From an uncultured Lachnospiraceae bacterium (GTDB taxonomy: Bacteria; Bacillota; Clostridia; Lachnospirales; Lachnospiraceae), in contig CAMUYQ010000007.1 of assembly GCA_947165025.1 (NCBI GenBank), forward strand, positions 62,001 to 126,000: DNA of 64,000 nt, read 5' to 3'. This document shows positions 8,696-42,261 of the stretch, piece after piece. Under the pieces are notes generated by a model that worked only from the letters and a program-made list of their open reading frames with translations, was not told where the DNA came from and ran no database searches. Numbering within the stretch: the first letter of the stretch is position 1; each line of letters begins with the position of its first letter. Position numbers and translations under genes: made by a program.

Positions 8696-8744
8696 ACGAC
8701 GGTAAGGAATCCTCCCACTTCGTGGGTCCCTCCTTCCTGCCTTT

Positions 8745-8824
8745 GCGGATATGGCGGAATTGGCAGACGCGCCAGATTTAGGTTCTGGTGGGAGACCGTG
8801 CAGGTTCAAGTCCTGTTATCCGCA
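8745..8824 (+). tRNA. tRNA-Leu (anticodon UAG)
   Basis: Acceptor stem GCGGATA/TATCCGC with discriminator A at 8824, anticodon stem CCAGA/TCTGG enclosing TTTAGGT (anticodon TAG), a class II variable arm and the T arm GCAGG-TTCAAGT-CCTGT. CCA is not encoded. The 3' part from 8776 is the attachment site of the inserted element and is restored by it, so the tRNA stays intact. Confidence 0.95.
8776..8824 (+). repeat. attL, 49-bp direct repeat
   Basis: Identical to 33789-33837. It begins at the last anticodon-stem base before the loop and ends at the discriminator base of tRNA-Leu. The bases outside the 49 differ at both sides. Confidence 0.93.
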
Positions 8825-8867
8825 GTCCACCCAATAGGGTATCTGTGAAAAATATTGCAGAATAAAG

Positions 8868-11052: not shown

Positions 11053-11283
11053 ATGGAAAAACTGGTATTTTCCACGCAGGAAATAGCTAATCTGTTAGGA
11101 ATAAGCAAAAGTTATGCTTATGAAATGGTGCGGCAGGGAATCATCCCATCGATGCGCCTGGGCAAGCATAAGCGGCTAATACCAAAAGAAATGTTTTATA
11201 ACTGGCTCGGCGAACAGTCCGGGAACAAGAAAGAGCTTGATAAAAGCTCTTTTTTTAATGAAAGGAAGGAGGATGAAATGTGA
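11053..11283 (+). CDS. Excisionase-type HTH DNA-binding protein
   Basis: A 76-residue protein with a winged HTH of the excisionase/MerR-like type: FSTQEIANLLGISKSYAYEM followed by the wing PSMRLGKHKRLIPK. Such proteins bend DNA at attachment sites and favour excision. AAGGAGG lies 9 bases before the ATG at 11053; the ATG at 11044 directly abuts it and is too close. Its stop overlaps the integrase GTG start (ATGTGA), the usual xis-int coupling. Confidence 0.85.
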   Translation: MEKLVFSTQEIANLLGISKSYAYEMVRQGIIPSMRLGKHKRLIPKEMFYNWLGEQSGNKKELDKSSFFNERKEDEM

Positions 11284-12434
11284 AAAAACGCGGAAATGGT
11301 GAAGGATCCATATATCGACGAAAAGACGGACGGTGGGTGGGTGCATATTACGATGAAAACTACAAGCGTAAATATGTCTATGCGCACAGCCAAAAAGAAG
11401 CCAAACAGCTACTAAGTGAAAAAATGGCGACAATTGGCTATAGCAAGGGTGAAGAAATGACACTGGCAGACTGGGTGTTCTATTTTCTTGAAGAATATAA
11501 GAAGAACGAAATAAAGGTCACTACCTATGATTCTTATATGATGACATATCGGGTGCATATAAAGAACTCTGATTTAGGGAAAACTCTTCTATTGGATCTT
11601 GATACGGCAATGCTCCAGAAGTATTACAATTCCCGAGTAAGGACGGGTGCAAACGCCAAGACAGTTATCCATTCTAGAACAGTCATCGGCTCTGCGCTTG
11701 ACCAAGCCGTAAAAATGCATCTGATCCCTGTAAACCCCAATAAGTATACGACAGCCCCCAAAAAGAAAACTTTCGAGGCAAAAGTACTAGACAAATCAGA
11801 TATCATGCGATTTGTAGCTGAAGCAAAGGACGAACCCCTATACCCGATTATTATCACGACCGTATATACCGGTATGCGAAAAGGTGAAGTAATGGGGCTT
11901 CGATGGCAGGATGTGGACTTTGATAAACGAGAAATCCATGTAAGACACAGTCTTTGCAAAGTATTGGAAGCTCCGGATGAGACCGGACGCAGAAAATCAC
12001 ACTATGAGCTACTTGAGCCCAAAAGCAAAAAGAGTATCCGGACAATCCCGATGCTTGATGAAGTCTATGAAGCCTTACAACTACAGAAAATGCGACAAAA
12101 AGAGGAGAAAAGGCTTTTCTCTGATGTGTACATTGATCGGGATTACATCTTTGCTGATCAGACAGGAAATTATCTTCCGCAGAGAACATTTATGACAGAT
12201 TACCACAGACTTCAGGAGCGTTATCAACTCCCCAAAGTGCGATTTCATGATTTAAGGCACTCATTTGCGACACTATTGATTGAGGCTAACGTTTCTATGA
12301 AAGTGATACAGGAGCTGTTGGGGCATTCTACCATCACTACCAGTATGGACTTGTATGCACATGTTTCGGAAAAAATGAAACGCCAGGCATTGGAAGATAT
12401 ACGGAAGATTACCTCATCGAACGGGGATCAATAG
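11280..12434 (+). CDS. int: Tyrosine recombinase (integrase)
   Basis: A 384-residue Tn916/phage-type integrase that should recombine the 49-bp site in tRNA-Leu. N-terminal arm-binding domain at about 1-55 (GSIYRRKDGRWVGAYYD), core-binding domain at about 60-150, catalytic domain from about 170. The catalytic set is complete: R200, a Lys-rich beta-hairpin near 248-252, H323-x-x-R326, H349 and nucleophile Y359. The start is GTG with GGAAGGAGG upstream. It is followed by a strong hairpin and a convergent gene. Unusually it is about 2.5 kb from the left attachment site, with the helicase between. Confidence 0.95.
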   Translation: MKKRGNGEGSIYRRKDGRWVGAYYDENYKRKYVYAHSQKEAKQLLSEKMATIGYSKGEEMTLADWVFYFLEEYKKNEIKVTTYDSYMMTYRVHIKNSDLGKTLLLDLDTAMLQKYYNSRVRTGANAKTVIHSRTVIGSALDQAVKMHLIPVNPNKYTTAPKKKTFEAKVLDKSDIMRFVAEAKDEPLYPIIITTVYTGMRKGEVMGLRWQDVDFDKREIHVRHSLCKVLEAPDETGRRKSHYELLEPKSKKSIRTIPMLDEVYEALQLQKMRQKEEKRLFSDVYIDRDYIFADQTGNYLPQRTFMTDYHRLQERYQLPKVRFHDLRHSFATLLIEANVSMKVIQELLGHSTITTSMDLYAHVSEKMKRQALEDIRKITSSNGDQ

Positions 12435-13119: not shown

Positions 13120-13452
13120 ATGCAATGTAAGACAATAAAAAATAAAAGAATAACTAATAGAATGACAGATAATGATTACAACATTATCAAAGATAAAGCT
13201 AATAAACTTGGAATGTCTATAGGTGAATATATGACTACTTCAGCAAGAGATAATAAACCAAAGTTAAGCAAGGCATATAAGAAAAGTATTGTTGCAGATA
13301 CTGTTCGTCTTCTTCAAGCAACAAATAATCTAAAAAGTGCTGTGATCGAAGGTCCTGGCTGTATGTATCAGCAAGAAAGAATATGCAAACTGGCTGATGA
13401 AATTGAAAGAGAGGTTGAGAAGATTTATGGCTCTGTTGTTAATTGCAAATAA
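13120..13452 (+). CDS. MobC-like relaxosome accessory protein
   Basis: A 110-residue basic protein. Its N-terminal 45 residues (NRMTDNDYNIIKDKANKLG, then MSIGEYM) have the ribbon-helix-helix pattern of MobC/relaxosome proteins that bind oriT and help the relaxase. The ribosome site is GGAGG 10 bases before the ATG. It overlaps the relaxase gene by 26 bases, so the two are coupled. It could be described as a plain RHH regulator, but the relaxase next to it supports the mobilization role. Confidence 0.75.
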   Translation: MQCKTIKNKRITNRMTDNDYNIIKDKANKLGMSIGEYMTTSARDNKPKLSKAYKKSIVADTVRLLQATNNLKSAVIEGPGCMYQQERICKLADEIEREVEKIYGSVVNCK

Positions 13453-14041
13453 CGGATCATACACAAATCCGGATGCGATAGATAATGTTCTTCGATATGT
13501 TACACGTACACGGAAATGCGAGAAGAGAGAAAATGAGCTGGTTTACTGTAATTCACTAGGAGTAATGCTCTCCTTGGGTATAGATCATTGTATTTATGAA
13601 ATGGAACAGTTACAGCGATTCTACAGTATCAACAATCGCGGAGGTCGTAGGATGTTTCACGAAACTCTCGAATTAACCGAGCAGGAAACGAGTTGTTTTG
13701 ATAGCATCGCTTCATTGTCAAAATTCGCAGATTCCTGTGCCTATATCTACTATCAGATGGGGTTCCAGGTTGTTTATGCTGTGCATTTTGTCCCTTATTC
13801 TGATGAAGATATGACAATCCTACAGAGACAACAAAAGGTCCGTCGTGGAGTCCATATTCATTTTGCGGTAAATATCATTTCTTTTTTGGACGGGAGAAAG
13901 TTTCACAGCACAGGCTCGGCCAGAATACAACGGGAGCGGTATTTCAATCGTCTGTTGAACTGCTATTTATCAATACAAACATTGAAAAAAGACCCAGCAA
14001 AAAGCTATATGTATGGAATGGAAGAAGAATTCTTTGTGTAA
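13427..14041 (+). CDS. Small relaxase (mobilization endonuclease)
   Basis: About 204 residues from the ATG at 13427, which lies inside the end of mobC. The histidine motif GVHIHFAVN (H143, H145, with H120 nearby), followed by FLDGRKFH, is typical of HUH relaxases that nick oriT. RYVTRTR near residue 24 may hold the catalytic Tyr. It is much shorter than usual relaxases and has no C-terminal helicase or primase part, so it represents little more than the nicking domain. An ATG at 13397 gives a longer form but would overlap mobC by 56 bases. The exact relaxase class is unclear. Confidence 0.72.
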   Translation: MALLLIANNGSYTNPDAIDNVLRYVTRTRKCEKRENELVYCNSLGVMLSLGIDHCIYEMEQLQRFYSINNRGGRRMFHETLELTEQETSCFDSIASLSKFADSCAYIYYQMGFQVVYAVHFVPYSDEDMTILQRQQKVRRGVHIHFAVNIISFLDGRKFHSTGSARIQRERYFNRLLNCYLSIQTLKKDPAKSYMYGMEEEFFV

Positions 14042-14510: not shown

Positions 14511-15203
14511 TCAACCGTATACAACTGAAAGAATTATTACAGTAACTACAATGAAGAGAACGAGCAATCCAACAGCAATAATTCCTGTAATGGCAAACCC
14601 TCTTTTTTGAGTTTTTCCTTTTAGTGCCAAAATACCAAGAACAATTGACGCAATCATAAGCGGCGGACATAGCAACGCAAAGATTATGGTCATTGGCCAT
14701 GATCCTAAACCAAACACCATCGATAACAATGCCTGCGTATTGGCTGTTTTTAATGCCTTCCGTTCTTTTTCTTCAGCTTCAAATTGAGTCTTGGCGTTTC
14801 GCATCTCCTCTATAGAATCATACAAAACACCATTAAAGGTTCGGGCTAACTCTTCGTGCCGTTTCTTTTCTGCCTCTACGCGCTCCTTTTCTATGCGTTC
14901 TTGTTCTGCTTTAGCTTCTGCCTCAAACTGAGTCTTGGCGGCCTGCATTTCATCTATAGAACCGTACAAAACCCCATTGAAAGTACGGCTTAATTCCTCT
15001 TGCTGCCTCTTTTCTGCTTCGAGCCTTTCTCGCTCCAGACGCTCTTGTTCTTCTTTTTCTTTTACCCGTTTGAGTTCACGTTCATCTTGCAATTCGGTCT
15101 CTGACGTAATATCCGTGGACCCAGTCTGCCCTTCAAACCTAGTACCGCACTCCGGGCAAAAGATGCCTTCATCAAATTCAGTTCCGCAGTTTTTACAAAT
15201 CAT
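14511..15203 (-). CDS. Zinc-ribbon, coiled-coil, two-helix membrane protein
   Basis: A 230-residue protein. A zinc ribbon begins at residue 3 (C3, C6, C16, C19; CKNCGTEFDEGIFCPECG). A highly charged coiled coil (about 35-150) contains two copies, 47 residues apart, of RTFNGVLY-SI-EM--AKTQFEAE. A C-terminal DUF4190-like pair of membrane helices (about 165-228) places the protein in the membrane with its ribbon in the cytoplasm. Third gene of a minus-strand operon with 15238-16968 and 16981-20145, whose products also start with zinc ribbons; its ribbon is clearly homologous to that of the next gene. Function unknown. Confidence 0.8.
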   Translation of the reverse strand: MICKNCGTEFDEGIFCPECGTRFEGQTGSTDITSETELQDERELKRVKEKEEQERLERERLEAEKRQQEELSRTFNGVLYGSIDEMQAAKTQFEAEAKAEQERIEKERVEAEKKRHEELARTFNGVLYDSIEEMRNAKTQFEAEEKERKALKTANTQALLSMVFGLGSWPMTIIFALLCPPLMIASIVLGILALKGKTQKRGFAITGIIAVGLLVLFIVVTVIILSVVYG

Positions 15204-15237
15204 TCGCGTTCTCCATCAATTAAGCTGTTTCATCAGA

Positions 15238-16968
15238 TTACTTCTTGTTTGTGAGGAAAATTACATTATCCTTTTCAATCTGGTTCAATTCTGCCTCAAT
15301 CTCACTCATTTCATATGTTCTTCCGTTATACCAAGACTTGCTGTTAAAGTAATTAGAAAGCCCTGCATCTTTAAACATCATCCCGTGACGGGCATATATT
15401 TCGTTGATCATCATCTGAGCTAATCCACGTCCACCTGGGAAGGAATCCATTTTATTCTCATACTTATCACGAATGCTATTAAAATCAGACGTTCCTAATA
15501 GCTTAGTATCAGCATATTCACAGATATAATCTCCAGACAATCCTTTTTCCAGTTTTCCCTTTTCTGCAAGGAAGATCACATTATCCTTTTCAATCTGGTT
15601 CAATTCTGCCTCAATATCGCTCATTTCATATGTTTTTCCATTATACCAAGACTTGCTGTTAAAGTAATTAGAAAGGCCTTCATCCTTATACATCATCCCA
15701 TGACGGGCATATATTTCGTTGATCATCATCTGAGCCAAACCACGCCCACCAGGGAAGGAAGATATCTGATCCTCATACTTATCACGAATGCTGTTATAAT
15801 CAGACGTTCCTAATAGCTTTGAACCCGTATATTCACAAATATACTCCTCATTGGCATCTGCACTTTGATCGCCACTATCAGATGTATAGCAAACAGTGAT
15901 AATAGGTATTAACTTCTTTTCACCATTTCCAAAAGTAAACCGCTTAAATCCAGAGTATGCTCCATATATGTGCGCATAACTATCCTCGATGAATGGTTCC
16001 CCATCCAATCGTTTATCAAGAATAAAGAAGTACTTGTTGTTAAAATCTCCCAAAGCAAGAAACTCCGGTTCCGACTCACCATCCCCCTGTAATTCTCCTG
16101 TTACAGCATAGTAGATTGGTTCAGATGTCGTTGAAACATCAACCTTCTGTCCTATCTTGACATCACACGAGACAAAACGACCGGGCGGTATCACTTCATT
16201 CACAGCATCATCGTATGTTATGAATACTCCATTATTCTCCATCGATTTTTTATATGATGTACCTGATTCGTCATACTTAAATTGTTTATAGTTTTCTTCA
16301 ATCTGTATGTCATCATCATTATTGTTTTCTATTCGTTCAGGTTCGTTTTCCTTTGTTTTCGAGTTCTCTTTCTCCGATTTTTTTGAACTGACTTCTTTTT
16401 GAGACGAATCAGTGGTTTCGTCGCTGTTTGTTACGGTTTCATTACTCACTACTTTAGAATTATCGGAATTACCGCCAAAAACCAAAACGCATGTAATAGA
16501 AAGCCATATTGCAGCAACAGCAAAAGAAATATATGAGCAAATATGCTTCTTTGTCTTTTCGCGTGATTTAAATAAATCAATAATTGCTACAATGATTCCG
16601 AAAAGAAACGTGAACGGGATTGCAGATAATATCAACGCTACAATAGAAAGACCTGAATGTTGTGGACCTATTACAACATTAGGCTGAGGCTTCTGCGAAA
16701 TGTCTATATGGTTTTCGGCTGCATGCCCAGATTTTACCTCAACCTTTTCTTCCTGTATCTCAACTTGTTCCTTTATACTTACTGCGGTAGTATCTTCCGA
16801 GGGTTTCTCGCTTGAATCATCATTCTGCTGGGTAGGCGATACATCGGAAGCGTCCGCGGACTTAATTGCATCCGCATCTTCTTGAATTAGAGGTTCATTT
16901 TTTGTCCCGCACATAGGGCAAAAGATGCCTTCATCAAATTCAAATCCACATTTCGAGCATTTAATCAT
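15238..16968 (-). CDS. Zinc-ribbon membrane protein with two YARHG domains
   Basis: A 576-residue protein: N-terminal zinc ribbon (C4, C7, C17, C20), acidic linker, two membrane helices at about 103-165, a low-complexity Ser/Glu/Lys/Asn stretch, a central beta-rich region around 245-370, then two near-identical YARHG domains (NEIYARHGMM, YNSKSWY-like blocks), 105 residues apart. YARHG domains are thought to be extracellular; with two helices the C-terminal part could be on either side. AAAGGGG lies before the ATG. It starts 12 bases after the stop of the large gene at 16981-20145. The three genes look like one functional unit. I know of no function for this combination. Confidence 0.82.
   Translation of the reverse strand: MIKCSKCGFEFDEGIFCPMCGTKNEPLIQEDADAIKSADASDVSPTQQNDDSSEKPSEDTTAVSIKEQVEIQEEKVEVKSGHAAENHIDISQKPQPNVVIGPQHSGLSIVALILSAIPFTFLFGIIVAIIDLFKSREKTKKHICSYISFAVAAIWLSITCVLVFGGNSDNSKVVSNETVTNSDETTDSSQKEVSSKKSEKENSKTKENEPERIENNNDDDIQIEENYKQFKYDESGTSYKKSMENNGVFITYDDAVNEVIPPGRFVSCDVKIGQKVDVSTTSEPIYYAVTGELQGDGESEPEFLALGDFNNKYFFILDKRLDGEPFIEDSYAHIYGAYSGFKRFTFGNGEKKLIPIITVCYTSDSGDQSADANEEYICEYTGSKLLGTSDYNSIRDKYEDQISSFPGGRGLAQMMINEIYARHGMMYKDEGLSNYFNSKSWYNGKTYEMSDIEAELNQIEKDNVIFLAEKGKLEKGLSGDYICEYADTKLLGTSDFNSIRDKYENKMDSFPGGRGLAQMMINEIYARHGMMFKDAGLSNYFNSKSWYNGRTYEMSEIEAELNQIEKDNVIFLTNKK
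15241..15535 (-). repeat. YARHG coding repeat, copy 2
   Basis: In-frame DNA repeat of 15556-15850 at an offset of 315 bases (105 codons). Differences are mostly silent or conservative, so the duplication is recent or kept similar. Confidence 0.8.
15556..15850 (-). repeat. YARHG coding repeat, copy 1
   Basis: Partner of 15241-15535 within the same gene; upstream copy in the reading direction. Confidence 0.8.
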
Positions 16969-16980
16969 GATAGTTCCCCT

Positions 16981-19900
16981 TTATTGATTCTGAACCTTTC
17001 CACAAAAATTGCAGAACTTAGCCTCTTTCATAATGGTTTTTCCACAATGAATGCATTGCTTATCCGCTGATAATTCGCTTCCGCAAAAATTACAGAATTT
17101 CACATTTGGCTTAAGTTTCTTTCCGCAATTAGGGCATATCTTGGACTCGTCAGTTTTCTCTACCTCAGAAGAATTCGCTGCTTCAACATTTTCTTCCAAC
17201 TTACTATCCAAGGGATTATCGACAGAACTCGTGGCAGCGATTTGTTGCACCGGCTCAGTTGTTTTATCAACTTCCTTGTACTCTGCGGGGATTCTAAAAA
17301 GATTCCCGTCAAAACTGGAGCCTCGCATATACTCCAATGCATCATTAATGCATTTAGCAAGCTTAACTGCGTCTGTACTAACATATCCCACTATTTTTTT
17401 ATTAGTTGTCTTGAAGGTTACCCATTGTGCTCCTACAACACCGCTCTTACCTTTAACAGAATCTAGATCTTTTATATAAACGCTGTCTAGTGCGCCCTCA
17501 ACAAACGTTTCATCCATCATATTACTAAACGTTGGCTTCATTTCACAAATAACACGTTTATTAGTTATTGCGAAGTTTAAGCTCGCTCCATAAGTCTGTT
17601 GGAGAATTGTATGCTCATCGTCATCAAAATTCAGTTCATCAATCTTTCTTGGCTCATCATCAAGGTATCCATACATTGAATTTGTGAAATACGGTGTGCA
17701 AGCAAATTCCAAATCCTTTGCATCATCTTCCTCGAGCGGGTATTCTTTCATCAAACGGTACCGAAGTTTCATTTCAAATCTGCCGGGTTTTGTTCGGCTG
17801 TATTTATCAATCTCTTCAATTTTCTTATTTAAGTACTCTAATTCTTCGTCGACCTTCTCTGATTCGATTTTTAGCATTTTTTCCTTTATGTATAATAGTT
17901 TCGGAAGAAATGTTGTTGCATCTATTATTGATGTGAAATCGGAACCTGATGTCGCATCCCGATAGATCCTCGCTTCATCAAGAGTTTTAAACGTATAATC
18001 TCCACATTTAAGAGCTAAATCCGTCAGCTCTTTTTCAAAAGCAAAGTATTCTTCTCTGATTGAATTCCATTCTGCAGGATCTACATTCTCAACATTTTCT
18101 TTATTAATATCAATTCCAGCTTCTTTTATTTCGGAATACAGCATATCAAGGAGCCTAATTGCACTACCATATGATAGATAGTCTCCACATTTTGTCATTT
18201 CGTCCCGGACTTTTTTTATAATGTATCTAATCTTGATTGCTTCGTTTGATTTAACATCAGTATTCCCTTTATCTACACTTTGAGTCTGATCAAATAAATA
18301 ATGATAATGATCAAATATTTTTTGGAGCAGAGCAGCTATTGTTGTTCCCCAATAGCCCCAATCCTCCCTCTCTAGACGCGAAAACTTACAGGGTATTTGA
18401 ACTTCTCCAGATTCAATAGTAATCATCCAAATGGAACCAGATGGATTATAGGCAATTTTCTTAATAACCTTAAGAGGAATAACTTGCTTAGTTTCAAGAA
18501 CAAAGAACTTGGTTTCTCCCAGTGCGAAGCCGGCCCCACCAGTCGCCATAAGGGAAGAATCATATGCGATGAGTGGATATTCATTGATGTATTTCATGCA
18601 CTTGTCATTAACCCATTGCATATCATATTTATATTGCTTATAAGCCGTTCCCGGCACATTAAGAACAGCATATTCCAACATTCGCGAATCGGCTGCCTTT
18701 TGGAACAGATTATGCACATAATCCTTCATGTTAAGTATGTCTTCATCTTTATCCGTTTGGACTTCCAATAGTTGTTCCGGATTAAGCTTTGAACTAGCAG
18801 TGCTAAGATAACGATACAGTTTTGTGTATCGAAAAACGCTCATGGGCGCGCCAACCTCAGATACTCCTAATTCTGATAAAAGCTTCTTTTCTTCCTCTTT
18901 CACAGAATAATATAACTCGGCACTATAAGAAGAATAATCCAAGTCTTTTAAAACGCTTGAATTATTGAAGAATGTAGCCATTTTTACGTTTAATCCAACA
19001 TCATTGCGTTCGGGAAATTCTCTGCTAATAACAGGATGGCTCATCCCCAAATAATCCAGTAGGTAATATAAAGAATCATAATCCCCCATCCCTTCATCTT
19101 TATCGATTGCTTTATACACCACAGCGTAAATATGCTCATAATAAGGGTATTTTGAAATTACAGATGCGTAATTAGACACAGCTTTCTGAGGATCGCTTTC
19201 AAATTTCGACGAAACTTCTAAAAGAGATTTAGCATCCCTCTCATTTGCAATACAATACGCCCAGCTGTTTGTCTTGGGATACATCTCCTGTAGATAGCAT
19301 TCAAAAAACTCGATAATCACTCGATATGCACCATAAACAATCTGGTTTCTGCAATAGTCTGAATCATGAAGCTGTCTGATTTTCTGACGTATTACAGCGT
19401 TATCGTTGGATTCTCTTGACGAATCGCCAAAACTACGAATAAAATCTGTTCCTGCATTCATGATAGATGCGGTAACAGCCCCCTTGATGGCACCTTTGAC
19501 GCCAAATCCGCCTCCTACCCATCTCCCGCGGGAAGCCTTCTGCATTTCTCGATAATTCGCCAACTGAGCCTTCTCGCTCATGATATTCGCGTATTTTTCG
19601 ACAATACCATCAATATACGTGTTATAGTCTAAATCAGAGCAATAGTATTTCTCGTAGAAATCCTCCATTGAAAAGACTTTTCCGGACGAGTAACACATTT
19701 CAGACATGGAATCTACCAGTTTACTCAATGTCTGATTCATGATATCTGACGCCTGCTGAACTAAACCTCCAACATCTGTCGTGCTATTATATAGCCGCAA
19801 CATAGCAGCTTTGCATTCGTTTGCAATCAATTCGAAAGGCTTACGTAATGCAATATACTCGTCCTGTTTTTTGTTAAAGACTATTTTCCCGCCACATATT

Positions 19901-20145
19901 GTAAAGCTCTTAACAACCTGGTTCTCCATGGCTGCATCTTTAGAAGGAAGATCCTTGTTTTTTGATTCCTTCTTTCTATTCTCAGGTTTATCCTTTTTTT
20001 CGGAGTTCACAGGATTCTTCGTACTCTGTTTTTTTTCTATTGTTTCTGCTTCATCGAAATATTCAGAAGGGCATCCACAAAACGGGCACTGAAAAGCTCG
20101 TGAAGAAATACTTTTTCCGCAGTCTGGACATTTGATTAATCCCAT
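16981..20145 (-). CDS. Large zinc-ribbon protein with PH-like domains
   Basis: A 1054-residue protein, first gene of the zinc-ribbon operon. It has an N-terminal ribbon (C6, C9, C20, C23) and two C-terminal ribbons in tandem (CPNCG...CNFCG and CIHCG...CNFCG). Between them: a Lys/Glu-rich linker, a short Gly-rich segment (GGGFGVKGAIKGAV, about 215) that may insert in a membrane, long helical regions, a beta-rich stretch near 560-610 (FFVLETKQVIPLKVIKKI) and another near 890-970 (FAITNKRVICEMK), both like bacterial PH/bPH2 domains. No enzyme motif is visible. The ribosome site is GGAGG. It is divergent from hsdR across 186 bases. The ribbons may mediate assembly with the other two proteins; function is unknown. 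Confidence 0.78.
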   Translation of the reverse strand: MGLIKCPDCGKSISSRAFQCPFCGCPSEYFDEAETIEKKQSTKNPVNSEKKDKPENRKKESKNKDLPSKDAAMENQVVKSFTICGGKIVFNKKQDEYIALRKPFELIANECKAAMLRLYNSTTDVGGLVQQASDIMNQTLSKLVDSMSEMCYSSGKVFSMEDFYEKYYCSDLDYNTYIDGIVEKYANIMSEKAQLANYREMQKASRGRWVGGGFGVKGAIKGAVTASIMNAGTDFIRSFGDSSRESNDNAVIRQKIRQLHDSDYCRNQIVYGAYRVIIEFFECYLQEMYPKTNSWAYCIANERDAKSLLEVSSKFESDPQKAVSNYASVISKYPYYEHIYAVVYKAIDKDEGMGDYDSLYYLLDYLGMSHPVISREFPERNDVGLNVKMATFFNNSSVLKDLDYSSYSAELYYSVKEEEKKLLSELGVSEVGAPMSVFRYTKLYRYLSTASSKLNPEQLLEVQTDKDEDILNMKDYVHNLFQKAADSRMLEYAVLNVPGTAYKQYKYDMQWVNDKCMKYINEYPLIAYDSSLMATGGAGFALGETKFFVLETKQVIPLKVIKKIAYNPSGSIWMITIESGEVQIPCKFSRLEREDWGYWGTTIAALLQKIFDHYHYLFDQTQSVDKGNTDVKSNEAIKIRYIIKKVRDEMTKCGDYLSYGSAIRLLDMLYSEIKEAGIDINKENVENVDPAEWNSIREEYFAFEKELTDLALKCGDYTFKTLDEARIYRDATSGSDFTSIIDATTFLPKLLYIKEKMLKIESEKVDEELEYLNKKIEEIDKYSRTKPGRFEMKLRYRLMKEYPLEEDDAKDLEFACTPYFTNSMYGYLDDEPRKIDELNFDDDEHTILQQTYGASLNFAITNKRVICEMKPTFSNMMDETFVEGALDSVYIKDLDSVKGKSGVVGAQWVTFKTTNKKIVGYVSTDAVKLAKCINDALEYMRGSSFDGNLFRIPAEYKEVDKTTEPVQQIAATSSVDNPLDSKLEENVEAANSSEVEKTDESKICPNCGKKLKPNVKFCNFCGSELSADKQCIHCGKTIMKEAKFCNFCGKVQNQ

Positions 20146-20331: not shown

Positions 20332-23082
20332 ATGACTCCGGAAGAACAGGCACGTGAACAGATTGACAAAAGACTTATTCAATCAGGCTGGATAATACAA
20401 GATTTTAGGCAACTAAACCCGATGGCATCATTGGGTGTTGCCGTGCGCGAATTTCCCACAAGCACGGGGCCGGTCGATTATGCATTGTTTGTAGAGGGTA
20501 TACCAGTTGGAGTTATTGAAGCAAAGAAGGATACTGTTGGGGAAAGGATTACTACTGTAGAGACTCAGTCGGGTCGTTATGCTAATAGTAAGCTTAAATA
20601 CGTCAGCGTTGATTATCGGATAAGGTTTGCCTATGAGGCAACAGGCGTTCTCACCAGATTTACGGATTATGATGATGTCAAATATCGATCAAGGGATGTC
20701 TTCTCGTTTCATAGACCCGAAACATTACATTCTTTATTGAAGGCACCGGATACTATCCGCAATAACATGAAGCATTTTCCTGAACTTGACACGACAGGTT
20801 TTAGGGATTGCCAGATAAAAGCCATTAAGAATCTTGATAAGTCGTTTTCGGAGAACCGTCCAAGAGCTCTTGTCCAAATGGCAACCGGTGCAGGAAAGAC
20901 CTTTACGGCTATTACCGCAGCCTATCGGCTTCTTAAATATGGCAAGATGAGGCGTATCTTGTTCCTTGTTGATACAAAGTCCTTAGGGGAACAGGCTGAA
21001 AGAGAGTTTCTTGCCTATATTCCCAATGATGAAAATAGATCCTTTTCAGAACTCTATGGCGTGAGAAGGCTTAAAAACTCGTATATTCCTAATGATATTC
21101 AGATCTGTATCAGTACGATCCAAAGGATGTATTCAATTCTCAAGGGAGAAGAACTTGACGAATCAGTGGAGGATGAGTCGTTATTCGAACAGAATGGCGT
21201 TGAATCTCAGCCTGTTAAGGAGGTTGTGTATAACGAAAAGTATCCCCCTGAGTTCTTTGACTGCATTATTGTCGATGAATGTCACAGATCCATCTATAAC
21301 ATATGGAGTCAGGTCCTTGAGTATTTTGATTCATTTATGATAGGTCTTACTGCCACTCCGGATAAGCGTACATTTGCGTTCTTCCAACAAAATGTAGTGA
21401 GTGAGTATTCTCGTGAGCAGGCGATCATTGATGGCGTTAATGTCGGGGAAGATGTGTTCCTTATCGAAACACAGGTTACAAAGAATGGCGCCCATGTGAT
21501 GAAACAGCTTATCGAATACAGAAACAGGCTCACTAGGCAGAAACGTTGGAAACAGATGGACGAGGATGAAAGATATAACTCCGACATGCTCGATAAAGAT
21601 GTCGTTAATCCTAGCCAGATACGTACAGTGATCAGGACATTCAAAGAAAACCTCTTCACGCAACTCTTCCCTCACCGTAGTGAGGTTCCCAAAACGCTCA
21701 TATTTGCGAAAACAGACAGCCACGCTGATGATATCATTCAAATTGTCCGGGATGAATTTGGAGAGGGAAATGAGTTCTGCCAAAAAATCACATGTCAGGC
21801 TGATAAGCCGGAAACTGTATTATCGGCATTTCGGAACGATTACTATCCCCGTATAGCTGTTACAGTAGACATGATCGCGACAGGAACAGATGTAAAACCG
21901 ATAGAATGTCTTGTTTTCATGCGCGATGTTCGGAGTAAAAACTATTTTGAACAGATGAAGGGACGTGGTACAAGGGTTCTTGATAAGGAAGACTTGAAAA
22001 AAGTATCTCCTTCAGCTACAGAAAACAAGGATCATTTTGTTATTGTTGATGCCGTAGGGGTTACAAAATCCAGAAAAACAGATACCCGTCCGCTTGAGCA
22101 TATGCCTAGCGTGAGCCTTAAACAGCTTATGATGAATGTTGCTTTGGGAGCAAGGGATGAAAAGACGCTTACCTCCCTTGCAAACAGGATCATTAGATTA
22201 AACAGCCAGTTAACTCCCAAAGAGAGAAAGGAGTTTACTGCTACTGTTGGATCTCCAGCCAACCAAGTAGCCCAGAATCTTCTTGACGCATTTGATGATG
22301 ATGTAATAGCGGAAAAAGCCGGATTGGTGCTTAGTGATGAATATGAGCTCACTCCGGAAGACGCAGAAAAGATGGAGCAAGCCAAGAATGAGTTAATAAA
22401 GGAAGCGGTTAAGCCGTTTTATGATCCGGATGTACGCACTTTTATTGAGGAAGTCAGACGAAGTCACGAACAGCTTATTGATTCTGTTAATATTGACTAT
22501 GTTTTGTATTCAGGATATGACACTAATCAGCAAGAGAACGCAGATCGCGTTATCTCAACGTTCAAGGAGTTTATCGAAGAAAACAAGGATGAAATCATAG
22601 CGCTTCGGATTATATATGATCAGAGGTACAAGGACAGACCGATGGCCATAAAAAACTTGAAGTCACTGTATGACAAGTTGAATGCCAAGGGCATTACCAT
22701 TGAACGTCTTTGGGACTGTTATGCAATAAAGAATCCCGATAAGGTTCGGAGAGGCAAAATGGCACAGATAACGGATCTTATTTCAATTATAAGATTTGAA
22801 ATGGGATACGGCGATAATCTTACACCATTTGCCGATAGGGTAAATTACAATTTCATGCAATGGACACTAAAGAGAAACGCCGGTGCTGTACATTTTACAG
22901 ATGAGCAGATGGAATGGCTTAGGCTTATAAAAGAACACATCATTACTTCTCTATCAATAGAGCCAGAAGACCTTGATCTCAGCCCGTTCGACCATAAAGG
23001 TGGATTGGGACGGTTCTATGATGTGTTTGGGGATGAGTATGAAAGCATACTTCAAGAGATGAATATAGAATTGGTGGCATAG
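20332..23082 (+). CDS. hsdR: Type I restriction enzyme, R subunit
   Basis: A 916-residue restriction and translocation subunit that cuts unmodified DNA. The N-terminal PD-(D/E)xK nuclease is visible as VDYALFVEG...GVIEAKKD (D-x14-ExK). Then come SF2 motor motifs: MATGAGKT (Walker A), DECHRS (motif II), GLTATPDKRT, TGTDVKP and MKGRGTRV (motif VI-like). A C-terminal helical region would contact the M/S complex. GGGAG precedes the ATG. The start of hsdS follows after 7 bases. All motifs are intact, so it is probably active. Confidence 0.96.
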   Translation: MTPEEQAREQIDKRLIQSGWIIQDFRQLNPMASLGVAVREFPTSTGPVDYALFVEGIPVGVIEAKKDTVGERITTVETQSGRYANSKLKYVSVDYRIRFAYEATGVLTRFTDYDDVKYRSRDVFSFHRPETLHSLLKAPDTIRNNMKHFPELDTTGFRDCQIKAIKNLDKSFSENRPRALVQMATGAGKTFTAITAAYRLLKYGKMRRILFLVDTKSLGEQAEREFLAYIPNDENRSFSELYGVRRLKNSYIPNDIQICISTIQRMYSILKGEELDESVEDESLFEQNGVESQPVKEVVYNEKYPPEFFDCIIVDECHRSIYNIWSQVLEYFDSFMIGLTATPDKRTFAFFQQNVVSEYSREQAIIDGVNVGEDVFLIETQVTKNGAHVMKQLIEYRNRLTRQKRWKQMDEDERYNSDMLDKDVVNPSQIRTVIRTFKENLFTQLFPHRSEVPKTLIFAKTDSHADDIIQIVRDEFGEGNEFCQKITCQADKPETVLSAFRNDYYPRIAVTVDMIATGTDVKPIECLVFMRDVRSKNYFEQMKGRGTRVLDKEDLKKVSPSATENKDHFVIVDAVGVTKSRKTDTRPLEHMPSVSLKQLMMNVALGARDEKTLTSLANRIIRLNSQLTPKERKEFTATVGSPANQVAQNLLDAFDDDVIAEKAGLVLSDEYELTPEDAEKMEQAKNELIKEAVKPFYDPDVRTFIEEVRRSHEQLIDSVNIDYVLYSGYDTNQQENADRVISTFKEFIEENKDEIIALRIIYDQRYKDRPMAIKNLKSLYDKLNAKGITIERLWDCYAIKNPDKVRRGKMAQITDLISIIRFEMGYGDNLTPFADRVNYNFMQWTLKRNAGAVHFTDEQMEWLRLIKEHIITSLSIEPEDLDLSPFDHKGGLGRFYDVFGDEYESILQEMNIELVA

Positions 23083-23089
23083 AAGAAAA

Positions 23090-24271
23090 ATGAAAACTGT
23101 AAAATTAGGCAGCATTGCGACTATTTATAATGGGAATAGTATAAATAAAACAGTAAAAAAACAGAAATATATGAATGATGTTCCAGGATGGAATTACGTT
23201 GGAACAAAAGATGTGGATTTTGACGGAACCATTACATATGATACAGGTGTCATAATCCCATATTCTGAGGAAGGTTTTAGACGCGCTCCCGCAGGGAGTG
23301 TATTTGTGTGTTCAGAAGGTGGGAGTGCAGGAAGAAAAACAGCCATTGTGAAGCAAGAAGTCTGTTTTGGAAATAAACTATTTGCGATAGTGAATGACAA
23401 GGGACTATTTGATGCCCAATATGTGTATTATTACACTAGATATGAAAATTTCAGAGAACAGTTTAAACTTTTGGCGACTTCTTTGATGGGTGGTATTTCA
23501 GCAAGGAATTTTTCGAAGATTGAAATACCATTGTGTGATCTTGCGGAACAGAAGCGAATTGTATCACGAATTGAAGAAGCGTTCTCGGAACTTGATTCCG
23601 GCATAGAAACACTGAAAAAAACGAAGGAACTGCTTGCTGTTTATCGCCAAGCTGTAATTAAAGATGCCTTCATAAAATGTAATTCTTCTGCAGAAATAGC
23701 ATCGGTCTGTGAGCATGTGACTGATGGGGACCATATGCCACCACCTAAGGCAGCAGAGGGTATTCCATTCATAATGATTTCTAATGTTGAAGATCACATC
23801 ATTAATTGGTCGAATACTGCATTTGTTAGGAAGGATTACTACGATAATATTGATGCAAAGAGAAAACCGCAAAAAGGGGACGTTTTATATACAGTTACAG
23901 GCTCATATGGTATTCCGATATTAGTTGATTATGATAAGGAATTCTGCTTTCAAAGGCATATTGCTCTGCTGAGACCTAAAAAGTCTATTATTCAGAAATA
24001 CCTTTACTATGCAATGATGGAGCCTGGTGTTTATGCTCAAGCTACTAATGTGGCGACGGGAACAGCTCAAAAAACAGTGGGATTAGGTGTTTTACGCAAA
24101 ATCAAGATACCTTTCGTTGAAAATCTTGAGGAACAGAGGCGTATTGTTGAGGGTATAGAGGGAAGGTTATCGGTTTGCCTGAGCATTGAGGAAACAGTAG
24201 ATGTTTCTATCCAACATGCTGATGCAATGCGACAAAGTATACTAAAACAGGCTTTCGAAGGGAGATTATAA
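23090..24271 (+). CDS. hsdS: Type I restriction-modification specificity subunit
   Basis: A 393-residue target-recognition subunit with the usual two halves: TRD1 (about 1-150), a conserved coiled-coil spacer (EQKRIVSRIEEAFSELDSGI), TRD2 (about 200-340) and a second spacer ending QSILKQAFEGRL. It sets the DNA sequence recognised by methylase and nuclease. Only one hsdS is present, with no inverted-repeat partner, so shuffling of specificity is not suggested. Its stop directly abuts the hsdM start. Confidence 0.95.
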   Translation: MKTVKLGSIATIYNGNSINKTVKKQKYMNDVPGWNYVGTKDVDFDGTITYDTGVIIPYSEEGFRRAPAGSVFVCSEGGSAGRKTAIVKQEVCFGNKLFAIVNDKGLFDAQYVYYYTRYENFREQFKLLATSLMGGISARNFSKIEIPLCDLAEQKRIVSRIEEAFSELDSGIETLKKTKELLAVYRQAVIKDAFIKCNSSAEIASVCEHVTDGDHMPPPKAAEGIPFIMISNVEDHIINWSNTAFVRKDYYDNIDAKRKPQKGDVLYTVTGSYGIPILVDYDKEFCFQRHIALLRPKKSIIQKYLYYAMMEPGVYAQATNVATGTAQKTVGLGVLRKIKIPFVENLEEQRRIVEGIEGRLSVCLSIEETVDVSIQHADAMRQSILKQAFEGRL

Positions 24272-25771
24272 ATGAGTGAGAGTTCATCGACTATAATATC
24301 AAAAGTATGGGGCATGTGCGGTCCACTAAGGGATGATGGTGTTTCCTATGGAGATTATCTGGAACAGCTTACTTACCTCATTTTCCTAAAGATGTCAGAT
24401 GAGTATTCAAAACCGCCGTATAATAAGAATACCGGTATTCCTAACGGATATGGTTGGGAGGATATGAACACCCTCACAGGGGCTTCTCTGGAAGATAAGT
24501 ATAAGTCTATTTTAGAAAAACTGGGCGAACAAAGCGGAATTCTTGGACAAATCTTTAAAGGAGCAATCAATAAGGTCAGTAATGCTGCTATTTTGTATCG
24601 CATTGTCCAGATGATAGATAAGGAAAAATGGGTATCAATGTCATCTGATGTTAAGGGTGAGATATATGAAGGACTTCTTCAAAAGAATGCTGAGGATATC
24701 AAGTCCGGTGCTGGACAGTATTTCACTCCCCGACCTCTTATAAGGGCAATGGTGAAGTGTCTTCGACCAGAGCCGATGAAGACAATCGCGGATCCGTGTT
24801 CTGGTAGTGGCGGATTCTTCCTTGCGGCTCAAGAATACCTTTCAGATCCGCAGAATTACTCTATGGATAGGGAGCAAAAGGAATTTCTAAAAAATGAAAC
24901 ATTTTATGGAAATGAGCTTGTGGCTACAACATACAAGCTATGTTTGATGAATCTTTATCTTCATAATATCGGAGATATCTATGGAAAGGTTCCTGTCACA
25001 CATGGCGATTCATTATTGACAGACCCCGGATACCGCGTTGACTATGTAATGACTAATCCTCCGTTTGGGAAAAAATCTTCGTTGACTTTTACCAATGAAG
25101 AAGGTGAACAGGAAGAGGAAGATTTAGTCTATAATAGGCAAGACTTCTGGACTACCAGTAGCAATAAACAACTGAATTTCGTACAACATATCAATACTAT
25201 TCTTAAAAGTGATGGTAAAGCAGCGGTAGTTGTGCCTGATAATGTTTTATTTGAGGGTGGAGCCGGCGAGACTATAAGGGAAAAACTGCTTAAGACTACG
25301 GATTTGCACACTATTCTTCGACTTCCCACGGGTATTTTTTATAAACCTGGTGTTAAGGCGAATGTGATTTTCTTTGATAAAAGACCCGCAAGCGCAGAAA
25401 CCCAAACAAAAGAGGTATGGATCTACGATTTTAGAACAAATGTGCATTTTACATTGAAACAGAACCCTATGACAGACAAAGATCTTGAGGATTTTGTTAA
25501 GTGTTACAATCCTGAAAACAGATTCGATCGCCAAGAAACATATACAGAAGACAATCCTGACGGAAGGTTCCGCAAGTTTAAGGTTAAAGATATTCTAGAA
25601 AGAGATAAAAAGAGCCTTGATATATTCTGGATCAAAGACAAATCACTGGCAGATCTTGATAACCTGCCTTCACCAGATATATTGGCAGACGATATTATTG
25701 AGAATTTGCAGAGTGCATTGGAGAGTTTTGAGAGTTTAAAAGCCCAACTGAAAGCAAAAAAGGATTCATAA
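24272..25771 (+). CDS. hsdM: Type I restriction-modification methylase, M subunit
   Basis: A 499-residue N6-adenine methyltransferase that protects host DNA. N-terminal HsdM helical domain; SAM motif I as ADPCSGSGGF near 172; catalytic motif IV as TNPPFGKKS near 255. The ATG immediately follows the hsdS stop, with GGGAG inside the hsdS end, so the two are coupled. The R-S-M order is less usual than M-S-R or R-M-S. A strong terminator follows. Confidence 0.96.
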   Translation: MSESSSTIISKVWGMCGPLRDDGVSYGDYLEQLTYLIFLKMSDEYSKPPYNKNTGIPNGYGWEDMNTLTGASLEDKYKSILEKLGEQSGILGQIFKGAINKVSNAAILYRIVQMIDKEKWVSMSSDVKGEIYEGLLQKNAEDIKSGAGQYFTPRPLIRAMVKCLRPEPMKTIADPCSGSGGFFLAAQEYLSDPQNYSMDREQKEFLKNETFYGNELVATTYKLCLMNLYLHNIGDIYGKVPVTHGDSLLTDPGYRVDYVMTNPPFGKKSSLTFTNEEGEQEEEDLVYNRQDFWTTSSNKQLNFVQHINTILKSDGKAAVVVPDNVLFEGGAGETIREKLLKTTDLHTILRLPTGIFYKPGVKANVIFFDKRPASAETQTKEVWIYDFRTNVHFTLKQNPMTDKDLEDFVKCYNPENRFDRQETYTEDNPDGRFRKFKVKDILERDKKSLDIFWIKDKSLADLDNLPSPDILADDIIENLQSALESFESLKAQLKAKKDS

Positions 25772-25850: not shown

Positions 25851-25888
25851 TATTGCAAATTCCGGAGAATAGATTGGAGGCGATGCAG

Positions 25889-26968
25889 ATGAATAATAAT
25901 GTACCGGAAGAAAAAAGAGATTTAAAGAAGCCAAGTGTAGTCATTTCGAAGGATCATCCTAAGGAGAAGAAAAAGCATATCAAGAAGGAGGGGCGGACAA
26001 TATATGAGATTCTGACAGACGAGATTAACCGGAATCCCGATATGACTGATGATGAGAAGGTTGCAAAACTGGATGAACTGTCAAAAATACAGGAAATGAA
26101 GGTAAATATCTTGATCGTAGGTCCAGCGGGAGTTGGAAAAAGCTCGACGATCAACTCTTTATTCGAAATGAATGTAGCTACCGTAGGTGAGGGGGTTGAC
26201 CCAGAAACGGATAGCTTAACACGTTATGATCTTAATAATCTTAGGCTTTATGACACGCCTGGCTTCGGTGATGGGATCAAAGATGTGGACTATGCAAAAA
26301 TGGTCGAAAAGAAGCTGAATGATTTAGACAAAAACGGCGATCCGCTTATTGATCTTGTTCTTGTGATACTGGATGCCGGCTCAAAGGATTTGGGAACTTC
26401 AATGAGTCTGATTAATGACACTATTATCCCCAATCTTGGAAGAAAAGCTGAGGATCGTGTGCTAATTGCGCTGAATCAGGCGGATGTTGCTATGAAGGGA
26501 AGGCATTGGGATGAGGTAAACAACAAGCCGGATGCAGTGTTAACTAAGTTCCTTAAGGACAAGGCTGAGTCTGTGAGAAGACGTATTTCGGAGGCTACCG
26601 GGGTGGACACCTGCCCAATTTATTATGCTGCAGGGTATACCGAGAACGGAGTTCAGAGAGAGCCATATAACCTTACAAAGCTTCTATATCACATTGTTCA
26701 TTCGATACCGGCAAAAAAGAGGCTGGCGCTTGCCGATCACGTCAATAAAAAGCGTAAGAACTGGCGCTATGATGATGGAGAAGATGATTACAAAGGCAAT
26801 ACCCTCCTTGACTTTTTTGATGACGTCAAAGGCTTCATGCTGTCGGGTGCAGATACGGGAAGAAACATAGGAAAAATTGTTCTTGGAAAACCTGGAGAGC
26901 TTATCGGAGCAATCATTGGTGGAACACTTGGAGCAATTGGAGGGTTCTTCTCGAGACTGTTTGGATGA
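25889..26968 (+). CDS. Dynamin/IRG-like GTPase, single gene
   Basis: A 359-residue protein: Lys/Glu-rich N-terminus (1-70), GTPase domain with GPAGVGKSST (G1, near 80), DTPGFGD (G3) and NQAD (G4, usual form NKxD), a linker, then a C-terminal Gly-zipper-like hydrophobic tail GELIGAIIGGTLGAIGG that could insert in a membrane. It resembles the YfjP/50S-binding-GTPase-like group often found near defence genes. GGAGG is 8 bases before the ATG at 25889 and too close to the ATG at 25883. Terminators on both sides make it a one-gene unit. A role in phage defence or abortive infection is an inference from motif set and neighbourhood. Confidence 0.82.
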   Translation: MNNNVPEEKRDLKKPSVVISKDHPKEKKKHIKKEGRTIYEILTDEINRNPDMTDDEKVAKLDELSKIQEMKVNILIVGPAGVGKSSTINSLFEMNVATVGEGVDPETDSLTRYDLNNLRLYDTPGFGDGIKDVDYAKMVEKKLNDLDKNGDPLIDLVLVILDAGSKDLGTSMSLINDTIIPNLGRKAEDRVLIALNQADVAMKGRHWDEVNNKPDAVLTKFLKDKAESVRRRISEATGVDTCPIYYAAGYTENGVQREPYNLTKLLYHIVHSIPAKKRLALADHVNKKRKNWRYDDGEDDYKGNTLLDFFDDVKGFMLSGADTGRNIGKIVLGKPGELIGAIIGGTLGAIGGFFSRLFG

Positions 26969-33788: not shown

Positions 33789-33837
33789 ATTTAGGTTCTG
33801 GTGGGAGACCGTGCAGGTTCAAGTCCTGTTATCCGCA
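33789..33837 (+). repeat. attR, 49-bp direct repeat
   Basis: Second copy of the tRNA-Leu 3' part. Its first two bases complete a TATAAT (33785-33790) with the element's terminal bases, a sequence absent from the intact tRNA. Confidence 0.93.
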
Positions 33838-41283: not shown

Positions 41284-42261
41284 ATGAATTGTCCCAGATG
41301 TGGTTATGAGGTGGCCGACGGACAGAAGTTCTGCAATGAGTGCGGTGCTTCTTTGCCGGAGAATGCTCCGGAGCAGGTGTTTGACTACGGATATGCAGAA
41401 AGCAATGAACCGTATGACAGCGAAGAGCCTGTCAGACCGAATTCCAGGAAGTGGCTGATCCCGCTCATAATAGGTATATCCCTGTTTGTGACGATCATCA
41501 TTGTCGTCGTTGCGTTTGTCGCTTTCAAGAGAGTAGCAAAGAATATTCAACAGAGCACACAGGAACACCTTAAAGATATGGATCTCCATATCGATGTTCC
41601 GCAGGATGTCGATCTTGATGAACTCAACAAGGCTGTCGATGAGATGAAGAACCTTGATCTGACACCGCCTGATATGGATATCAATATTGGAGACACCGAA
41701 GTACCCGAAGTTCCGGACATCACAGCGGACGATACGAAGAGCGAACCGCAGGGAGACAAGACTGAATACAGTTATGTTGATGTTTACAGAAACGGAAACG
41801 AAGTCAAAGTCATCCCCAACGGAAAGCTGAACGGATCAACGGTTCTTGCAAACGGGAAAGATCTTGATGGATTCCTTGACTATGTTGACAACACTGTTCT
41901 TGAAAAGGGACGCAATATCAACAGAAGCTTCTTCTACGAGATACTTGCTACCATGCTTGTCGACAAGGATATGAATCCGGGATTTGAAGATATTGAGAAG
42001 AATATGATCATGGCACTTGCGATGGGTAATAACTTCTACAACACCGATGTTACTGTCATCGACTGTGATCTTGATGCGAACAATGCTGCAGAGTACAGAT
42101 ACAATGTTAAGGCATACGGCAAAGATGACACATGGCTCGTGAACTACCAGAACAGAACGATCTACTTCAACAACGGTAAGACCGAGTATTCATCTGATAT
42201 GTTCAAAACTGATTATCTGTCGATGTGGATGATCGCCACAGAGGAATACTACAACAAATAA
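41284..42261 (+). CDS. Zinc-ribbon membrane protein
   Basis: A 325-residue protein: N-terminal zinc ribbon (C3, C6, C17, C20), acidic linker, one membrane helix at about 58-82, then an extracellular region with Asp/Pro-rich linker and a C-terminal alpha/beta domain (about 165-325, YSYVDVYRNGNEVKV, FFYEILATML). The architecture resembles DUF4854-like zinc-ribbon proteins; I do not assign a function. AAAGGAG precedes the ATG. Last gene of the PrsW cluster. Confidence 0.78.
   Translation: MNCPRCGYEVADGQKFCNECGASLPENAPEQVFDYGYAESNEPYDSEEPVRPNSRKWLIPLIIGISLFVTIIIVVVAFVAFKRVAKNIQQSTQEHLKDMDLHIDVPQDVDLDELNKAVDEMKNLDLTPPDMDINIGDTEVPEVPDITADDTKSEPQGDKTEYSYVDVYRNGNEVKVIPNGKLNGSTVLANGKDLDGFLDYVDNTVLEKGRNINRSFFYEILATMLVDKDMNPGFEDIEKNMIMALAMGNNFYNTDVTVIDCDLDANNAAEYRYNVKAYGKDDTWLVNYQNRTIYFNNGKTEYSSDMFKTDYLSMWMIATEEYYNK

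Follow-up and report, generated by a model that had tools for sequence, protein, structure and literature searches.

Three adjacent genes on a mobile element of a Lachnospiraceae bacterium, here termed g1, g2 and g3, may encode one membrane-anchored envelope-surveillance complex. The g3 product would be the hub, the g1 and g2 products would be its anchors, and g3 would cluster on a signal. This is the best explanation of the operon, and it is put forward tentatively.

Gene layout and domain content of the operon

The window analysed here is a 64,000-nucleotide stretch of contig CAMUYQ010000007.1. A three-gene minus-strand operon of ribbon proteins had been noticed in it in the first-pass annotation, and this observation was confirmed: g3 (16981..20145), g2 (15238..16968) and g1 (14511..15203) are real genes. 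All features within them are given on the minus strand. Ribbons were found in all three products by sequence and Pfam; the Pfam ribbon scores of g1 and g2 were below the cut-offs, and their CxxC pairs are plain in the sequence. Pfam scans of g1–g3 detected no DNA-binding domain besides the ribbons, no PspA, Band-7/SPFH or TPM domain, no TerD, TerB or TerC domain and no GTPase or NTPase domain. Promoter-like sites (24 vs. 19.3 in shuffled sequence) and terminator-like sites (5 vs. 4.2) occurred near the shuffled number.

The 1054-aa g3 product, defined by its ORF, Pfam ribbons and family searches, starts with a CxxC-CxxC ribbon (C6, C9, C20 and C23; 20077..20130) and ends with two further ribbons (residues 1004–1049; 16999..17136; Pfam DZR, 7.4e-9). 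Between them, family alignment and a structure model delimit a helical domain (residues 75–350; 19096..19923), for which the name GGGF was coined in this analysis. Block pLDDT of the model was mostly 73–93 over residues 81–350, with dips at 151–170 and 291–300. Within this domain, alignment revealed the conserved stretch RGRWxGGGFGVxGAIKGAVTASIMN (19456..19530) with a glycine zipper (G218/G222/A226/N230). The RGRWxGGGFGxxGAIKG core and the GAxxGxxxAxxxN helix of g3 align with 19 relatives, and 21 of 23 GGGF loci retain the zipper pattern, their sampling being partly biased to it. Residues 503–632 (18250..18639) are predicted to form a PH-like domain, i.e., a seven-stranded barrel capped by a C-terminal helix as in the PH superfamily, with PH, PTB and FERM structural neighbours of the model. 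A putative second PH-like stretch (about residues 845–945; 17311..17613) was recognised in the sequence by eye only, the model being too weak there.

The g2 product (ORF, Pfam, hydropathy) combines its ribbon with hydrophobic segments (residues 104–136 and 142–167; 16468..16659) and a C-terminal part with two YARHG domains (residues 375–470, 15559..15846; residues 480–575, 15244..15531). It belongs to the YARHG family (PF13308) with 89.7 bits against a cut-off of 27 (E 1.2e-25, two stretches). The hydrophobic segments precede the YARHG domains, the extracellular placement of which is putative and based on hydropathy. In the g1 product (ORF, motif search, hydropathy), the ribbon is followed by two copies of an RTFNGVxY motif (14916..14990 and 14772..14846) and by C-terminal hydrophobic stretches (residues 163–197 and 201–230; 14514..14717). 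The latter are read as three membrane helices, their number being judged by eye.

The combination of ribbon, transmembrane segment and extracellular YARHG domain is already in print: the available portion of PMC3355149 counts 73 instances with a ribbon pair, places YARHG outside the cell and proposes it as a peptidoglycan binder. The order of parts in g2 is the same, from N-terminal ribbon through membrane segment to C-terminal YARHG. However, g2 has a single ribbon instead of a pair, its hydrophobic stretch is longer and its YARHG domain is duplicated, and a GGGF protein and another ribbon anchor are encoded in the same operon.

The GGGF family and its link to ribbon proteins

Searches with g3 or GGGF profiles covered overlapping sets of 250, 391 and 398 genomes, about a thousand in all. 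Altogether, 23 GGGF loci were assembled from at least three phyla, yet Pfam and NCBIfam hold no model matching the domain above cut-off, and no meaningful match was found among PDB sequences. Since the domain has no name, the literature was searched via neighbouring terms; no report was found, which is no proof of its absence from print.

Conserved co-occurrence of all three genes, named as a check in the first-pass annotation, was not borne out. Among 250 family genomes, the own genome included, g1 (E ≤ 1e-4) was matched in 19, g2 (E ≤ 1e-10) in 12 and g3 (E ≤ 1e-10) in 4, and the three do not form a conserved set. One other genome has both g3 and g2, the g2 match lying on a different contig (G112), and one other has both g3 and g1 (G116, i.e., locus L011). 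A lack of co-occurrence, which had been named as evidence against the proposal, was thus largely observed for g2 and was not observed for g1. The L011 partner shares 39% identity with g1 in a 230-column alignment (6e-33) and runs on into an end that resembles SH3 (Pfam SH3_3, E 1.8e-5; 25.2 bits, below the cut-off of 27). A candidate SPFH protein two genes after the L011 pair was dropped because Pfam showed only ribbons there.

A link between g3 and g1 gains support from ribbon genes that neighbour other GGGF genes and from the presence of the g1 motif inside GGGF proteins elsewhere. At the 22 other loci, 7 of 28 adjacent same-strand ORFs were ribbon genes, compared with 11 of 318 in the background (p 1.8e-4). 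When one Cys-rich lipoprotein that had been wrongly included among these was left out, 6 of 28 remained (p 1.1e-3). An HMM of the g1 motif, built only from the two g1 copies and the L011 copy, was searched against a set of 507 distinct ORFs that includes 23 GGGF proteins. Its five best other matches were all GGGF proteins (E 2.8e-4, 0.0023, 0.013, 0.069 and 0.42). None of 40 column-shuffled versions placed more than two GGGF proteins among its top five, and with ORFs of at least 500 aa (21 of 91 GGGF) the chance odds of five out of five are 4e-4. In 150 family genomes, the motif matched all four known GGGF genomes, which had supplied training rows, and one of the 146 others. The first-pass proposal, in which a cytoplasmic ribbon/PH protein belongs to an assembly tethered to the membrane, was therefore upheld in part: the assembly is supported by the anatomy and by these relatives, i.e., the g3–g1 pair, the neighbouring ribbon genes and the shared motif, whereas conservation of the three genes together is not.

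A candidate envelope-surveillance complex

We infer a physical complex of g1–g3, with its topology, ligand and output, as follows. The g3 protein would be a cytoplasmic hub, the GGGF domain of which offers a glycine-zipper helix for helix-to-helix packing, by which it would oligomerise or insert into the membrane surface. The PH-like domain of g3 may bind either a lipid or a partner protein, and the ribbons at the g3 termini may dock on other ribbons. The g1 and g2 proteins would act as anchors with a cytoplasmic ribbon and membrane helices, g2 adding two wall-facing YARHG domains. The sensor of a change in wall or membrane would be g2 (in the L011 relative, the SH3-like version), and the signal would pass via g1/g2 to g3, which would then cluster at the membrane and either protect it or shut the cell down.

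A working precedent is found in Bacillus subtilis: YdjI/PspA is drawn from the cytosol by the membrane proteins YdjG/YdjH, and wall synthesis is disturbed when they are lost (PMC8581546). There, as excerpts of PMC8581546 and PMC11237479 describe, membrane proteins, one of them ribbon-bearing, bring cytosolic oligomers to the membrane, and g1 and g2 are likewise ribbon-bearing membrane proteins by hydropathy and sequence. In contrast, g1–g3 lack PspA, Band-7/SPFH and TPM domains by Pfam, and the hub would be a GGGF protein instead. A likeness to TerD/Ter stress systems (PMC3710099 and PMC7159879, in the portions available) is confined to one relative, a Paenibacillus GGGF protein fused to TerD (locus L013; Pfam 1.1e-30) that also bears a ribbon, whereas the window operon has no Ter domain. 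The DO-GTPase conflict systems described in the accessible part of PMC7159879 also combine ribbons, membrane segments and wall-binding SH3 domains, but g1–g3 are devoid of any GTPase or NTPase domain by Pfam.

It is conceivable, though doubtful, that GGGF proteins in general are an undescribed family of membrane hubs, assembled through zippers and acting in bacterial immunity or envelope stress. A wall-facing sensor and an RTFxGVxY coupling segment would be swapped between cis, within a hub that has a membrane hairpin itself, and trans, on a ribbon-docked anchor such as g1. One hub could thus be equipped with YARHG, SH3, TM2 or TerD modules, in some cases on mobile elements. If envelope surveillance by g1–g3 is true, one more such machine would stand beside the known ones. 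YARHG, 'in search of a function' in the title of PMC3355149, would gain a working partner, and there would be one reason for a mobile element to carry ribbon-membrane proteins beside a restriction system.

The mobile element and alternative roles

The operon lies inside a 25.0-kb element integrated in a tRNA-Leu gene (8744..8825, plus strand; ARAGORN). Two exact, unstranded 49-bp attachment repeats were found (8776..8824 and 33789..33837), and the element is missing from three congener loci. The suspected carriage on a mobile element was thus corroborated. On the plus strand, the element encodes a tyrosine integrase (11280..12434; Pfam Phage_integrase, 6e-29), a NikA-like mobilisation protein with a short MobA/VirD2-type relaxase-like ORF (13120..14041; Pfam, the relaxase with 24.0 bits just below the cut-off of 24.6) and, as divergent neighbours of the operon, type I restriction hsdR, hsdS and hsdM (20332..25771; PADLOC). 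A GTPase at 25853 follows hsdM and is separate from g1–g3. A relaxase search for sister elements led back to the window alone (1 of 200).

Alternatively, the operon may be an abortive-infection module, the wall-facing domains of which sense phage contact or injection, with g3 oligomers breaching the membrane via the zipper helix and stopping the cell. We regard this as possible but unlikely, the evidence for it being indirect. The restriction system carried on the same element, the AbiE genes (AbiEi antitoxin and AbiEii toxin domains) adjoining L011 and the TerD fusion, in view of a TerD-dependent anti-phage system mentioned in the available text of PMC3710099, are consistent with it. No specific defence link emerged from PADLOC-DB 2.0.0: g2 and g3 had no match, and residues 41–191 of g1 matched LeoBC only (E 0.0015; 15.8 bits). 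The toxicity of g3 is putative. Element or recombinase genes lie within 10 kb at 6 of 11 loci in the clade of the window, the window included, which speaks for this reading, and at 2 of 12 in the other clade (p 0.089; without the window, p 0.17). The clades are separated by one starred branch in a tree of 23 GGGF rows with many long branches. The clade split was dropped as an argument because the difference is not significant. Moreover, 15 of the 23 loci have none of 13 mobile-gene queries inside 10 kb, some contigs ending sooner. By tblastn (E ≤ 1e-5), g3 was unmatched in phage and plasmid collections, as were the GGGF proteins of L012 and L019 in plasmids. A first viral_contigs scan gave one GGGF locus and a second, with 20 rows, none; of the six proteins queried, PHROGs matched ribbon or motif stretches only.

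It is improbable that the operon encodes a membrane-tethered transcription regulator with nucleic acid-binding ribbons freed by an outside signal. The same proposal is printed for ribbon-TM-YARHG proteins in the accessible part of PMC3355149, and all three products bear ribbons, but these are the only DNA-binding candidates in Pfam, and g3 has PH-like and zipper parts that suggest contacts with membranes or proteins. Housekeeping of the element, i.e., mating exclusion or stabilisation unconnected to stress or defence, appears quite improbable. NikA-like, relaxase-like and ParB_N genes adjoin the operon, and homologues of the YqaJ and DUF5688 genes of the element lie within 9 kb of the L012 and L016 GGGF genes; the majority of loci without mobile-gene queries argues against it. 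Least probable is that three unrelated ribbon genes share a transcription unit by chance and have no joint function, a reading suggested by the partial g1 and g2 relatives that mostly occur without a g3 match and opposed by the recurring g3–g1 pair, the neighbour statistics and the motif sharing.

The tRNA-Leu element and its three ribbon genes

Window positions 8776–33837 constitute a 25.0-kb element integrated in tRNA-Leu. A 49-base repeat near the 3' end of the tRNA-Leu gene that serves as integration site (8744–8825) spans 8776–8824, and an exact copy lies at 33789–33837. Element sequence was absent beside tRNA-Leu in all three congener loci inspected (8–14 kb fetched each), and the right-flank sequence of the window was found near tRNA-Leu in two of them. 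Thus, the mobile-element setting proposed in the first-pass annotation was supported by the repeats and the element-free congener loci. Between the repeats lie ORFs for a helicase, an integrase, NikA-like and relaxase-like proteins, ParB_N, g1–g3, hsdRSM, a GTPase, YqaJ, RecT, DUF5688, a resolvase, a MoxR-like ATPase and DUF2201. The GTPase (25853–26968), located after hsdM, showed a LeoBC-like score of 2.2e-11 in PADLOC and a possible C-terminal glycine zipper under the Pfam cut-off (E 0.024). Outside the element, pattern and hydropathy indicated a 325-aa ribbon and membrane protein at 41284–42261.

The ORFs g3 (16981–20145, 1054 aa), g2 (15238–16968, 576 aa) and g1 (14511–15203, 230 aa) follow one another on the minus strand, 12 and 34 bases apart, as first annotated. 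The N-terminal ribbons of g1 and g2, called homologues in the first-pass annotation, are closely alike (16/22 residues); both score under the curated Pfam cut-offs, with four cysteines evident in each. Pfam assigned one N-terminal and two C-terminal ribbons to g3 and two YARHG domains to g2 (E 1.2e-25), the latter a tandem duplication with 81/96 aa and 254/288 nt alike. In the hydrophobic stretches of g1 (residues 163–197 and 201–230), we read three helices by eye. Positively charged loops sit on the cytoplasmic side (positive-inside rule); by this rule, the g1 ribbon is predicted to lie inside, given the positively charged KGKTQKRG loop that joins the second and third helices.

The GGGF domain of g3

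In a search of 250 genomes of the same family, full-length g3 had matches at E ≤ 1e-10 in four, its own genome counted. Residues 75–350 of g3, the helical N-terminal domain named GGGF here, were aligned with the relatives from those four genomes. When genome contigs were scanned with this alignment, 15 GGGF loci were obtained, from Bacillota, Pseudomonadota and Verrucomicrobiota as well as from unassigned bins; a viral-contig scan yielded one. In the genome samples, GGGF occurred in 6/391 genomes at class level and 4/398 at phylum level, the window's genome included in each. After removal of duplicates (same length and sequence of contig), 23 loci remained. In one Lachnospiraceae genome (CAJTEY, isolate B79_4_CH_BP), two distant GGGF genes (L010 and L016) were observed, one g3-type with a ribbon, the other with Sel1 repeats.

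The outer parts and ribbons are of known kinds, and the GGGF hub domain is in neither Pfam nor NCBIfam: Pfam gave no match above cut-off in g3 or ten relatives, and NCBIfam none near any cut-off. PDB sequences gave no meaningful match, the best being a designed repeat protein (E 0.0083). The conserved core reads RGRWxGGGFGLxGAIKGAxTAGAxN, and G218, G222, A226 and N230 of g3, spaced by four, fall on a single helix face. The pattern GAxxGxxxAxxxN was present in 21/23 loci, a count biased because the contig scan was queried with patterns derived from that motif; among the six loci found by other routes, it was present in four.

For g3, AlphaFold gave a model (mean pLDDT 52, pTM 0.36) that was usable over the N-terminal ribbon and residues 81–370, the latter predicted as a beta hairpin, long helices and then TPR-like helices. 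Here, pLDDT blocks were mostly 71–93, with dips at 151–170, 291–300 and 351–360. Beyond residue 370, the model was mostly below 50, except for residues 631–715.

Links between g3 and its partner genes

In family genome G116 (locus L011), a 758-aa g3 relative bearing N- and C-terminal ribbons comes directly before a 577-aa g1-like protein, 39% identical to g1 across 230 aligned columns, which extends past the g1-like part into an SH3-like end marginally under the Pfam cut-off. At the 22 other GGGF loci, with neighbours called mechanically, ribbons were found in 7/28 adjacent same-strand ORFs versus 11/318 in the background (p 1.8e-4), or in 6/28 (p 1.1e-3) when L024, whose Cys-rich lipoprotein had wrongly been counted as a ribbon, is left out. 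By our criterion, 16 of the 22 loci (17 without the miscount) lacked an adjacent ribbon gene. Two of the adjacent partners, at L017 and L022, are ribbon–TM2 proteins, one clostridial and the other from Verrucomicrobia.

An HMM trained only on the two RTFNGVLY copies of g1 and the L011 copy was searched against 507 distinct ORFs, 23 of them GGGF. The next five matches were all GGGF proteins (L008, L019, L024, L018 and L035; E 2.8e-4 to 0.42). With column-shuffled HMMs (n = 40), GGGF proteins accounted for at most two of the five best matches, and the lowest E was 0.017; the chance of five of five was 4e-4 when limited to ORFs of at least 500 aa (21/91 GGGF). With L008, L023 and L024 as extra seeds, the refined profile recovered six motif-bearing GGGF proteins at E < 0.001; L022, at E 0.13, was comparable to the first unrelated ORF at 0.15. 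Among 150 family genomes, it matched the four known GGGF genomes, whose sequences are in the profile, and 1/146 others, the latter through a membrane protein without the GGGF domain. Based on these searches, some lineages have RTFNGVxY within the GGGF protein itself, whereas two others have it within the membrane anchor. The g1–g3 tie is, as judged from these motifs, a Rosetta-stone type of link; that of g2 to g1 and g3 is one of position only. Co-occurrence, suggested earlier as a check, was observed in part: the g3–g1 pair recurs in G116, but partial relatives of g1 and g2 were found in 19/250 and 12/250 family genomes, respectively, mostly with no g3 match.

The g1 repeat (window 14772–14990, residues 78–103) weakly matched phage head-tail joining families (phrog_2545 of PHROG, E 1.3e-7, but no individual stretch passed; NF047331, E 6e-4, under cut-off) and was similar to a Helitron helicase stretch (E 0.16). 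A short hairpin-helix motif may be what these sequences share.

Possible roles in envelope surveillance or defence, and GGGF neighbourhoods

YARHG is described in PMC3355149 as extracellular, with peptidoglycan binding proposed and a pair of N-terminal ribbons counted 73 times among 290 proteins. In Bacillus subtilis, according to PMC8581546, YdjG and YdjH serve as anchors for YdjI and PspA, which are cytosolic, and wall synthesis is disturbed when these anchors are lost; ribbons in this PspA/YdjGHI operon are described in PMC11237479. By analogy, g1–g3 are proposed to work like the PspA–YdjGHI complex, although they are not members of it, since they contain no PspA or Band-7. Envelope surveillance, with either repair or cell arrest as output, would on this analogy have a nearly even chance of being their function. 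A broader reading, in which GGGF proteins are undescribed zipper-assembled membrane hubs of immunity or envelope stress with swappable modules, is speculative and rather doubtful. Defence, the role inferred in the first-pass annotation, is unlikely for g1–g3: mobile genes (13-protein query set) lay within 10 kb of 8/23 GGGF genes, some contigs ending sooner, with 6/11 in the window's clade (window counted) versus 2/12 in the other (p 0.089), and PADLOC gave no match for g2 or g3.

The remaining flanking ORFs were read by eye. DUF932, YqaJ and DUF5688 genes lie within about 9 kb of GGGF at L012 (12725–19194) and L016 (14714–19564), YqaJ and DUF5688 being common to the window's element. At L021 (4577–7678), a MoxR ATPase and DUF2201 pair located 4–6 kb from the GGGF gene is 63% and 46% identical to that of the element. 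Two lineages (L023, 7471–12631; L024, 5296–8440) both combine GGGF with a gene for a Cys-rich lipoprotein-like product, and a third gene common to them resembles that of prolipoprotein diacylglyceryl transferase. At L013 (8618–12025), a single Paenibacillus protein combines a TerD domain, a ribbon and GGGF, and terminates in a CFITTAVC stretch, which may be a CFI-box; the end of L025 is similar by eye.
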